From an uncultured Clostridia bacterium (GTDB lineage: Bacteria; Bacillota; Clostridia; Christensenellales; Borkfalkiaceae), in NCBI GenBank assembly GCA_944327465.1, contig CALVHH010000002.1:79493-143492 (forward strand): a stretch of DNA of 64,000 nucleotides, given 5' to 3'. A model generated the notes under the pieces. The model had not been told where the DNA came from. It worked only from the letters and a program-made list of their open reading frames with translations, and made no database searches. Shown piece after piece: positions 31,194-33,018 of the stretch; the stretch's first letter is position 1; each line of letters opens with the position of its first letter. A program made the position numbers and the translations under genes.

Positions 31194-31661
31194 ATGACCG
31201 AAGAAAAAAATGATGAAGTTATAGCCGAAGACGAAAATAAATCGGCAAAAAAAGAGGGAAAACTTTCGGGATTTTTTAAAAAGGTCGGGCAGAAGTTTGA
31301 CGACGCGACGTACGATTCGCGCCTGACTTCCGATTTCAACAAAAATCACGTAAAATACCAGGTCTTTACCGGCACGGGCATATTTTCTGCCAATCCCGAA
31401 ATTGCCGTCGAAGAACACCTTGAAGGCGACAGGAAATACGTCACCGCCTTGGGCGGCGATGAGGACGTAATAAAAGCCGGCTGCCTAATAAGAAAAAACA
31501 ACGACAGCGCCGTTTACAATATAGCCGAAGTTGAAAAGACGACGCTGGAAATAGAGTTCGAAGGCAAGGCAAACAAAAAGGACGGGCTGAACATATACAT
31601 CGGCGAGCCCGCAAAAAAGGTCAACGTCATAAAAGTAGGCGACGACTTTTACCTGGCATGA
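31194..31661 (+). CDS. Unknown 155-residue acidic-basic protein
   Basis: ATG 31194 follows GAGAAGG at a long spacing. Residues 1-20 are highly charged (EEKNDEVIAEDENKSAKKEGK), then KLSGFFKKVGQKFDDATYD looks like an amphipathic helix. Residues 45-155 alternate strands (YQVFTGTGIF, GLNIYIGEPAKKVNVIKVGDDFYLA). No signal peptide, no cysteine cluster except a lone Cys. The N-terminal amphipathic segment could attach to membrane or a partner. No family recognised; ends in its own terminator. Confidence 0.7.
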   Translation: MTEEKNDEVIAEDENKSAKKEGKLSGFFKKVGQKFDDATYDSRLTSDFNKNHVKYQVFTGTGIFSANPEIAVEEHLEGDRKYVTALGGDEDVIKAGCLIRKNNDSAVYNIAEVEKTTLEIEFEGKANKKDGLNIYIGEPAKKVNVIKVGDDFYLA

Positions 31662-31684
31662 CGCATAATATTTAAACAGCCTCT

Positions 31685-31721
31685 ATGGCGGCGAAAGCTT
31701 TTGCGCTTTCGCCGCCATGTT
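31685..31721 (+). terminator. Terminator of the 155-residue gene
   Basis: A 14-bp stem (31685-31698 with 31105+600 side at 31705-31718), loop TTTTGC, then GTTTATT. Confidence 0.8.
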
Positions 31722-31766
31722 TATTGCCTCACCCTTAAAAATTTGCCCCCTTAAAGAAACGGTATA

Positions 31767-31792
31767 CCCCGCGGCAGTACATCGCCGCGGGG
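31767..31792 (-). terminator. Possible terminator of the tiny-ORF transcript
   Basis: A 9-bp GC stem CCCCGCGGC/GCCGCGGGG with an 8-base loop, about 35 bases beyond the folded RNA on the minus strand. The U-tract is poor. Confidence 0.5.
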
Positions 31793-31825
31793 TGGAATAT
31801 GCTTAGTATTAAATTTTAATTTCTT

Positions 31826-31991
31826 AGAGGTTTGCCTCGTGAAACGGTTACTGATAAGCCGTTCGGGGTAATGTTCCCTTGCAGTGATGCCTTTGTGCCT
31901 GAAAGGTGAGCCGTGCGCCCATCATAGTGGATTTGCTTACTCGGCATTGCCTACTGCGAAATTAAAACCGTGTTTACGAATTTAAACCTCT
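31826..31991 (-). ncRNA. Large structured RNA domain, unidentified
   Basis: A roughly 166-base fold. AGAGGTTT and AAACCTCT close it; TCGT, AAAC and GGTT pair with AACC, GTTT and ACGA, giving about 20 paired positions with small bulges. An asymmetric internal loop follows (8 bases on the 5' side, about 31 on the 3' side with a possible GGG/CCC hairpin), then a terminal arm starting GCAGT/ACTGC and TGCC/GGCA. The closed stem, central bubble and arm recall 6S RNA, but sequence does not allow that call. Read on the minus strand because a strong promoter at 32335-32362 points this way. No SRP, RNase P or tmRNA signature is present. Confidence 0.6.
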
Positions 31992-32009
31992 GCACATTAA
32001 ATTGTACAT
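31974..32009 (-). CDS. Tiny ORF 4 (11 residues)
   Basis: MYNLMCRGLNS. GGAAGG lies nine bases upstream, and the SD follows directly on the stop codon of tiny ORF 3. Its second half is the 5' strand of the long closing stem of the folded RNA, so a ribosome here would open that stem. Confidence 0.5.
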   Translation of the reverse strand: MYNLMCRGLNS

Positions 32010-32024
32010 CGGACTATACCTTCC

Positions 32025-32063
32025 TTATGATTCGAGTGCCCTTGAAAGTACATTTCTGGTCAT
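32025..32063 (-). CDS. Tiny ORF 3 (12 residues)
   Basis: MTRNVLSRALES. A perfect AGGAGG lies nine bases before the ATG. It aligns codon by codon with tiny ORF 2 (M-x-R-x-V-x-S, shared GTA, TCA and GC- codons), and the upstream 14 bases around AGGAGGTAC are shared, so the two units look like a tandem duplication 83 bases apart. Confidence 0.55.
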   Translation of the reverse strand: MTRNVLSRALES

Positions 32064-32101
32064 TGGTGTGTACCTCCTAAGCATTGAATGGGATCAAGAT
32101 T

Positions 32102-32146
32102 TTATGCGCCTGATCCGGACGCATCTGAAAATACTGCTCTTATCAT
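32102..32146 (-). CDS. Tiny ORF 2 (14 residues)
   Basis: MIRAVFSDASGSGA. AAGGAGG lies nine bases before the ATG. Related to tiny ORF 3. Hydrophilic, no toxin-like membrane segment. Confidence 0.55.
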   Translation of the reverse strand: MIRAVFSDASGSGA

Positions 32147-32251
32147 ATTTGAGTACCTCCTTAGCGTCGAAATTTTGGAGTGAATTTATATATACGGGCG
32201 GTCGCTGAAAGCTATCCGCTCAAATTATAAAACCTTGACCCGCTTTCGCGG

Positions 32252-32266
32252 CTACTTATAAGTCAT
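32252..32266 (-). CDS. Tiny ORF 1 (4 residues)
   Basis: MTYK then TAG, nine bases after GAGG. It is followed by a CCGC-GAAA-GCGG tetraloop hairpin. Too short to judge on its own; it is listed because its SD spacing matches that of the three other units. Confidence 0.35.
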   Translation of the reverse strand: MTYK

Positions 32267-32286
32267 AATAGCTTACCTCTTTATTT

Positions 32287-32303
32287 GTGTTTAGCGCTAA
32301 CAC
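32287..32303 (-). promoter_or_regulatory. LacI-type palindrome in the tiny-ORF leader
   Basis: GTGTTTAGCGCTAACAC, with the perfect core TTAGCGCTAA, about 25-40 bases after the expected start site. The shape resembles operators of LacI-family proteins including CcpA; the binding protein is unknown. Confidence 0.45.
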
Positions 32304-32334
32304 TTTTTGTAAGTTATTTTCTTTTTGTACTTTA

Positions 32335-32362
32335 AGTATACCATATAAATTTTATTTGTCAA
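32335..32362 (-). promoter_or_regulatory. Promoter of the tiny-ORF/structured-RNA transcript
   Basis: TTGACA (32357-32362), 16 bases, TATACT (32335-32340). Very AT-rich flanks. No conventional gene lies downstream on this strand before ylxM. Confidence 0.8.
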
Positions 32363-32394
32363 TACCTTTTTCAAAAATTTTTTAAATTTTTTTT

Positions 32395-32436
32395 CGGTGC
32401 GAAAAGCGCCCGTCCCGGGGGCGATTTTTCGCACCG
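32395..32436. terminator. Hairpin between the tiny-ORF promoter and the nitroreductase promoter
   Basis: An 11-bp stem (CGGTGCGAAAA with its complement) around an inner GC stem. It insulates the two divergent promoters. Confidence 0.5.
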
Positions 32437-32439
32437 CTA

Positions 32440-32468
32440 TTGCATTTTTACCCGAAGCGTGTTATAAT
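32440..32468 (+). promoter_or_regulatory. Nitroreductase promoter
   Basis: TTGCAT (32440-32445), 17 bases, TATAAT (32463-32468). Confidence 0.8.
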
Positions 32469-32496
32469 ATTTTAAAACATGCGGGAGGTATTTTAT

Positions 32497-33018
32497 ATGA
32501 ACGCCACGATAGACGACCTTATAACGCGCAGGAGCATAAAAAAGTACAAACCTGACGCCGTGCCCGAAGAGCTGTTGAACAAAATAACCGAAGCGGGCAC
32601 GTATGCTGCCTGCGGCATGGGCAGGCAGTCGCCCATCATAATCGCCGTGACAGACAGGGCGGTGCGCGACGAGCTTTCGGCAATAAACGCCAAAATAATG
32701 GGCAGAGAGGGCGCCGACCCCTTCTACGGCGCGCCCGCCGTGCTGGTCGTGCTTGCAGACAAGAGCGTGCCCACGCACGTTTACGACGGCTCGCTGGTCA
32801 TGGGCAACCTGATGGCGGCTGCGCACGCGCTGGGGCTGGGAAGCTGCTGGATACACCGCGCAAAGGAGACCTTTGAACTGCCCGAAGGCAGGGCGCTGCT
32901 TGAAAAACTGGGTATAGAGGGCGAATACGAGGGCATAGGCAACTGCATAGTGGGCTATACCGACGAGGAGCGCGAAGCCAAGCCCAGAAAACAAAACTAT
33001 GTATACCGCGTAAAGTAA
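32497..33018 (+). CDS. Nitroreductase family flavoprotein
   Basis: A 173-residue FMN-dependent reductase of the small NfsA/NfsB-like group. Residues ITRRSIKKYKPD near the N-terminus bind the FMN phosphate. ALGLGSCWI and IGNCIVGY form the flavin and dimer interface. ATG 32497 is eight bases after GGGAGG. Substrates could be quinones or nitro compounds; family members vary widely. Monocistronic with strong promoter. Confidence 0.9.
   Translation: MNATIDDLITRRSIKKYKPDAVPEELLNKITEAGTYAACGMGRQSPIIIAVTDRAVRDELSAINAKIMGREGADPFYGAPAVLVVLADKSVPTHVYDGSLVMGNLMAAAHALGLGSCWIHRAKETFELPEGRALLEKLGIEGEYEGIGNCIVGYTDEEREAKPRKQNYVYRVK

Follow-up and report, generated by a model that had tools for sequence, protein, structure and literature searches.

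Judged by its relatives, the RNA encoded on the minus strand of the window (the whole 64,000-nucleotide stretch of DNA analysed here) is a real RNA gene, and it very likely forms a kissing-loop homodimer via a palindromic loop in its leader, a feature absent from the initial annotation. The RNA seems to pair with its own copies and to load ribosomes at tiny open reading frames (ORFs) placed before its folded parts. It is a structured RNA of most sampled genomes in a large gut genus, yet it is missing from Rfam.

Layout of the RNA gene

The gene comprises a promoter, a leader hairpin, four mini-ORFs each with a Shine-Dalgarno sequence (SD) and AUG, a 166-base fold and a terminator-like hairpin (Table 1), and it sits between a divergent nitroreductase gene and a convergent gene that matches no Pfam family. 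On the evidence of the homologous sequences, comparison shows promoter, leader hairpin, mini-ORFs, pseudoknotted 3′ domain and terminator-like hairpin to be one conserved unit. The strong minus-strand promoter claimed in the initial annotation was borne out by its near-consensus match, and the claim of a stand-alone transcript ending in a large fold gained the support of a family with compensatory pairs, SD-AUG units and steady AUG-to-helix distances. Promoter and leader anchor were located together in 71 of the 73 loci tried. The U tract of the terminator-like hairpin is weak; under the rule applied, 57 of 75 homologues have a perfect stem of at least six pairs 3′ of the tail. A further strong hairpin at 31684-31719 (TATGGCGGCGAAAGC...GCTTTCGCCGCCATG) is terminator-like for the convergent gene at 31194-31661. 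Elsewhere in the window's own genome (L051, G000:C23:6500-8500), a second similar promoter and transcript start was found, with no such palindromic loop seen; this is possibly another strongly expressed RNA.

Table 1 Features of the RNA gene, in positions of the window
Feature	Coordinates	Strand	Basis or remark
RNA gene, promoter to terminator-like hairpin	32362..31766	-	
Promoter TTGACA-16-TATACT	32335..32362	-	11/12 consensus match, near-consensus
Leader hairpin GUGUU-AGCGCUA-AACAC	32287..32303	-	covariation, palindrome count
Self-complementary loop hexamer AGCGCU	32298..32293	-	proposed kissing-loop dimer site
ORF1 MTYK (stop)	32252..32266	-	SD GAGG nine bases upstream
Hairpin CCGC-GAAA-GCGG	32240..32251	-	directly after ORF1 stop
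Hairpin GCGG...CCGC	32198..32219	-	between ORF1 unit and ORF2; conservation partial
ORF2 MIRAVFSDASGSGA (stop)	32102..32146	-	sequence
ORF3 MTRNVLSRALES (stop)	32025..32063	-	second ORF2-type unit
ORF4 MYNLMCRGLNS (stop)	31974..32009	-	family's last ORF ("ORF3" in relatives); 3′ half overlaps P1
Structured 3′ domain, 166 bases	31826..31991	-	covariation in 47 homologues
P1	31991-31984/31833-31826	-	
P2	31980-31976/31840-31836	-	
P3	31971-31968/31847-31844	-	
Hairpin P4; also P5, P6	31957-31953/31885-31881 (P4)	-	P6 poor in window
Pseudoknot UUUUAAUUUC (31967-31958) with GAAAUUAAAA (31823-31814)	31814..31967	-	crosses P1-P3
Terminator-like hairpin ACCCCGCGGC...GCCGCGGGGT	31766..31793	-	sequence

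The observation that no Rfam family could be recognised was confirmed: searches with Rfam (release 15) gave no match at gathering score in the whole window, nor in 20 loci with homologues, and the best permissive match within 31500-32500 had an E-value of 0.95. The library searched presumably includes OLE, ROOL, GOLLD and raiA. An origin from a phage or plasmid was rejected, as no match was found in phage and plasmid collections; a single IMG/VR match to a 19-base motif looks like chance and lies in DNA that looks coding and has no match to Rfam or to the covariance model of the family (R1, below). A divergent 6S RNA or tmRNA was likewise rejected, the matches over cut-off lying on other contigs (6S RNA, G000:C10; tmRNA, G000:C18) and none in the window. 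No account of such an RNA appeared among the open-access papers listed by literature searches. From human microbiomes, 3161 candidate structured RNAs have been reported (PMC8040213, presumably Fremin and Bhatt).

Distribution of the family and genomic context

A DNA search of 150 genomes, the window's own included, matched 77: the own genome, 73 of 89 congeneric genomes and 3 of 60 others from the order. The three same-order matches and one within the genus (G032) cover query positions 1-62 only, that is promoter and transcript start, hence 72 of the 89 same-genus genomes were counted by DNA match, with G032 left out. Model R1, built on the 3′ domain, detected copies in three more of the 16 unmatched same-genus genomes and none in G032, which brings the carriers to 75 of 89 (72 by DNA match and three by model). 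Applied with stricter filters to the taxonomic family, R1 matched 11 of the 13 members of the genus but not one of 108 others, 90 unlisted genomes among these being assumed to lie outside the genus (the listing puts the genus first). The R1 search missed G045 and G084. Fourteen of the 89 same-genus genomes show no copy, through assembly gaps or loss, and a second full copy within one genome was not seen. Among 297 genomes of the order, an exact 16-base motif occurred in 7, each of which belongs to the genus; among 391 genomes of the class it occurred in 1, again of this genus.

For the comparisons below, two of 73 loci (G084 and G080) were dropped for want of a full anchor, leaving 71, and four stretches from a pattern search (L113, L137, L149, L154) were added, giving 75 homologues; two of the four seem identical to G022 and G080. 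The pattern search itself returned 43 stretches, with an estimated seven or so chance matches expected, and two of the stretches (L133 and L151) do not belong to the family by sequence. The carriers are named as uncultured Clostridia assemblies, and isolate names such as Lapin and iMGMC suggest the gut of rabbit and mouse.

A gene for a Na+/H+ exchanger lies divergently upstream in 52 of 71 loci, and the downstream genes are varied, a YfbR-like nucleotidase among them. Since the window has the nitroreductase at the exchanger position, no functional link to the exchanger is claimed. From the last AUG to the tail, compact homologues span 125 to 161 nt, while some others reach several hundred bases. 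These long types (L052, L058, L068 and others; about 13 homologues whose 3′ domain extends over several hundred bases) obtain low scores with R1 (E 0.12 at best), and their membership is based on the DNA match of leader and ends.

A switching palindrome in the leader loop

The loop of the leader hairpin contains a six-base palindrome in 74 of the 75 homologues, with any register inside the hairpin accepted; when the loop letters were shuffled, a mean of 14.7 and a maximum of 24 of 75 were palindromic (200 repeats). Eleven different hexamers account for these: GGTACC (23), AGCGCT (17), GCGCGC (16), GACGTC (5), GCTAGC (4), GGCGCC (3), GTGCAC (2), and ACGCGT, CGTACG, TGCGCA and ACCGGT (1 each). 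The sole exception, GCTGGC, is self-complementary once G-U pairs count. The 75 rows represent 28 distinct hairpin windows. A tree was built from the exchanger proteins of 50 genomes, out of 52 that have one; it includes long rows (G056 and G044) and 13 open forks. On it, the loop changed state at least 21 times among 11 states, namely ten palindromes and GCTGGC. Near relatives thus tend to share the loop state, as the mean for shuffled states was 30.5 changes.

Columns 16 and 17, the two at the centre, are standard pairing partners in 63 of 64 distinct rows, even though neighbouring bases within a single strand are unable to pair. The outer loop pairs are absent in 14-15 of the 64 rows, mostly those in which the AGCGCT palindrome is shifted by one base. 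Two of five shuffle measures on the leader were not significant (double-change pairs, 139/500; pair types, 72/500). An intermolecular contact, the mark of homo-oligomeric large RNAs, is supported here by covariation in the form of palindrome switching. The same argument has been applied to OLE and GOLLD, with palindromic tetra- and dinucleotides, in section 8 of a paper on these RNAs (PMC12286853, presumably Kretsch et al.).

Fold of the 3′ domain and a crossing pseudoknot

Alignment A1 holds 47 of the 71 anchored homologues, those that are compact with both ends found, and excludes the window. Helices P1-P6 were set by hand on the 3′ domain and then counted: 88.0% of the cells are paired and both sides have changed in 23 of 28 pairs, with a covariation of 0.374 compared with 0.192 after shuffling (0/500 as high) and at most 0.155 when the helices were slid. 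P2 (78.3% paired) and P6 (75.0%) are the weaker helices. P1, which is AGAGGUUU/AAACCUCU in the window, appears in homologues as GAAAUC/GAUUUC, UAAGACC/GGUCUUA, GGGAAUC/GAUUCCC, GAGACUGAA/UUCAGUCUC and others. The window, which was outside the training set, matched R1 with an E-value of 6e-9 among 16 sources and 4e-6 in its whole genome.

Energy folding gave z-scores of -1.32 for the 191-nt 3′ part, with 20 of 200 shuffles at least as stable, and -2.79 for the 567-nt transcript (1 of 100 shuffles), and RNAalifold, applied to 52 compact homologues in a crude alignment, returned scattered helices only. Although energy alone is unremarkable, the covariation and the window's match to R1 indicate that the 166-base fold with its long closing stem (P1, P2 and P3), as drawn in the initial annotation, is right; paired substitutions, one of the checks suggested there, are found in its stems.

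The minimum-energy fold instead joins GGUUUUAAUUUC to the 3′ tail. By comparison among relatives, this pairing reads as the partner of a pseudoknot, whose strands were read off the sequence in the window and evaluated in the 47 relatives. There, the mean duplex energy was -2.69 with each RNA's own tail and -1.92 with permuted tails, and none of 2000 permutations was as strong. The predicted covarying pseudoknot is an addition to what had been described before.

Mini-ORFs and their distance to the helices

In the window, four start codons follow GAGG or AAGG at exactly nine bases, compared with a mean of 0.05 such sites in dinucleotide shuffles, none of 3000 of which reached four. The regular spacing noted initially therefore stands for the window, but "exactly nine" is no conserved rule, because the spacing from GGAGG in relatives peaks at 8 within a range of 6 to 12; nor is the SD of GGAGG type throughout, SD1 being GAGG and SD4 GGAAGG. 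The proposed duplication of ORF2 and ORF3 fits seven genomes, the window's own among them, that list two or more ORF2-type units (G000, G001, G027, G038, G057, G059 and G079).

The family plan is SD-ORF1 (MKYK-like), SD-ORF2 and SD-last ORF (MYKFTGEI-like), and at least two SD-AUG ORFs are listed in each of the 75 homologues. Unit number varies (G056, G052, G079); the RNA of G056 repeats the ORF1-hairpin unit four times in tandem, with no AUG in the first (L032, G056:C37:52500-55000), and so offers a natural test of the effect of unit number. With a rule restricted to three or four codons, ORF1 was called in 60 of 75 homologues, and it has four codons in 59 of those. No three- or four-codon ORF occupies its position in 13 of 75, which suggests that the ORF1 dock is dispensable. 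The length of ORF2 is 10-19 codons (60 parsed) and that of the last ORF 5-11 codons (61 parsed, one misparse aside).

Distances from these ORFs to the following helices are steady. A four-pair hairpin with several paired stem variants begins 0-1 nt past a stop codon in 65 of 75 homologues, and from the A of the ORF1 AUG to the hairpin there are 15 nt in 56 of 60 scored. The hairpin between the ORF1 unit and ORF2 was found at its position in 51 of 75 by loose criteria. The last AUG lies 17-20 nt from P1 in 60 of 75, and columns 1-28 of A1 are gapless in its 47 rows though the length of the last ORF varies. Among the 15 homologues outside 17-20, ten long types score best at 12 and five have other helices; a helix at 18 is visible in both long types examined (G086 and G030).

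The position of the mini-ORFs is thus kept better than their product, which is what a ribosome dock would look like. We infer that the mini-ORFs are ribosome docks acting in cis, and the reading as a ribosome-recruiting RNA, one of three functions offered in the initial annotation, is supported by the SD-AUG units and the steady AUG-to-helix distances.

RNAs of similar plan in another lineage

The motif search also led to another RNA in an assembly named Oscillospiraceae bacterium (L133:4448-5157, minus strand). One or other of its ends, 5′ or 3′, was matched in 11 of the 25 genomes searched (its own is among them), often in several copies, and ten of twelve stretches (L190-L201) yielded eleven RNAs of this type by pattern; for one of the eleven, the L133 RNA, the end was seen only in separately read sequence. 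These RNAs begin with AGAGAGG, an AUG and a three-codon ORF (MYN, MYK, MYE, MYT or MYR), followed by a part of variable length and a second AGAGAGG-AUG with an eight-codon ORF (MLDIKNHK and the like), the stop of which falls inside a terminator hairpin. Rfam gave nothing on the twelve stretches but tRNAs in three of them. The 19-base motif common to the L133 and window RNAs may be chance or reflect common usage of ribosome-binding sites. UBA945 has a possible stand-alone RNA (L151:2731-3280, minus strand) in which two short ORFs, each with SD and AUG, are accompanied by a terminator-like hairpin; it had no match in 24 other genomes, and the locus also holds a 6S RNA.

Proposed mechanism and alternative explanations

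We favour, as a finely balanced judgement, a dock-and-remodel model: a homodimerising RNA with ribosome docks in cis, in which occupancy would set the state of the RNA. The hairpin after ORF1 starts at about +16 and P1 at about +18 to +19 from the last AUG, and the reach of a ribosome is about +15 to +18. An initiating ribosome on ORF1 or the last ORF would then come to rest directly at the foot of the helix that follows. The folded dimer would be protected and held by initiation or by a ribosome that has paused, whereas elongation through the last ORF would open P1-P3 and free the pseudoknot strand for the 3′ tail. Since no ribosome could traverse the last ORF without opening P1, P2 and P3, the fold would depend on translation. 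The mini-ORF peptides would be by-products, and the dimer could report or hold back ribosomes or 30S subunits as translation slows. That ribosome occupancy decides the state of the RNA is proposed here as the least certain step.

A simpler explanation, which is possible although we lean against it, is that the SD-AUG units merely retain ribosomes or 30S subunits as a shield of the RNA against a 5′ exonuclease, RNase J, and endonucleases, with the dimeric RNA as the working part in an unrelated job. This would agree with the weakly constrained peptides, with SD1 (GAGG) lying in the 5′ region about 50 nt from the inferred start, and with the L133-type family, whose RNAs have one SD-mini-ORF at the start and another immediately ahead of the terminator hairpin. 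A precedent comes from bacilli, in which a strong SD in the 5′ leader (stab-SD) stabilises long untranslated RNA and a start codon is unnecessary (PMC3997798). Shielding alone leaves unexplained the several units, the SD beside the 3′ domain and the steady AUG-helix distances.

Improbable in our judgement is a dual-function or peptide-coding RNA, another of the initial proposals, in which the product would be the small peptides themselves (such as MKYK, M..LYFARTIEEKGR and MYKFTGEI). Synonymous change in ORF1 (13 observed, 8.9 expected; 4/500) and third-position change in ORF2 (68 and 56.5; 5/500) are in excess and speak for coding. The sign of selection on a peptide is weak for ORF1, however, and a synonymous excess is lacking in ORF2 (30 vs 27.8; 171/500) and in the last ORF (16 vs 18.0; 378/500), the latter also showing no third-position excess. 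The variable lengths of ORF2 and the last ORF and the loss of ORF1 in some homologues point the same way, and on this sequence evidence the peptides appear weakly or not constrained.

More improbable still is that the palindrome acts in the DNA, as the operator bound by a dimeric regulator near the promoter, rather than as an RNA dimer site. The near-invariant TGT and ACA arms just downstream of the promoter would suit an operator, but one with conserved arms needs no palindromic centre, and here the variable centre stays self-complementary through 11 sequences, with at least four G/C among the six bases in all 11 hexamer kinds, as an RNA duplex would favour.

Very unlikely is an attenuator or leader of a downstream gene, the remaining initial proposal: the short ORFs and alternative pairings (either P1-P3 or the pairing of pseudoknot strand and tail) recall leader-peptide attenuators, but the unit is closed by a terminator-like hairpin, the nearest downstream gene is convergent in 46 of 69 loci (by crude ORF calls), and no same-strand neighbour family is adjacent throughout that could be the regulated gene.

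Returning to the dimer with ribosome docks, it would be a bolder and rather unlikely step to see in it a new functional kind, a kissing-loop dimer with several start-codon docks forming an RNA-only scaffold that couples, stores or counts ribosomes, with a blueprint shared with the multi-copy family of the second lineage. The shared blueprint in that case is SD-mini-ORF, variable fold, SD-mini-ORF and terminator, invented or kept in another lineage. The palindrome occurs naturally in 11 versions, the compact members measure about 350 nt, and the candidate docks are clear, which should make a link between self-assembly and translation directly testable.

Comparison with known RNAs

Short ORFs in small RNA are found in the dual-function small RNAs VcdRP, SgrS and RNAIII and in the phage bar minigenes. 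In contrast to these, the window family combines weak peptide conservation with several ORFs of 4 to about 20 codons in place of a single small protein. 6S RNA and tmRNA are similar in size to the window RNA and are themselves housekeeping RNAs. In the retroviral dimer-initiation loop and phi29 pRNA, a loop dimerises the RNA by kissing. The window RNA differs from both in being bacterial and chromosomal, and its hexamer switches among many palindromes. Retroviruses and phi29 are also named beside RNA dimers in section 8 of the paper cited above for OLE and GOLLD (PMC12286853).

The stab-SD leaders of bacilli (cryIIIA, ermC) likewise carry a strong SD near the 5′ end with a product that is not needed (PMC3997798). 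Unlike them, the window RNA does not lead into a gene; its several SDs all introduce an AUG and a short ORF, and two of the SD units lie at a steady spacing from a helix.

Few natural RNAs have been seen to form homo-oligomers, and what OLE, ROOL and GOLLD do is still poorly understood (PMC12286853). The window RNA is distinguished from these three by the absence of an Rfam match and of a phage or plasmid match, by a single six-base leader loop and by its SD-AUG mini-ORFs, the word "Shine" being absent from the main text of that paper. Like OLE, GOLLD and ROOL, it is a stand-alone RNA of several hundred bases with an elaborate covarying fold; all three share symmetric kissing loops, supported for OLE and GOLLD by switching palindromes (PMC12286853).
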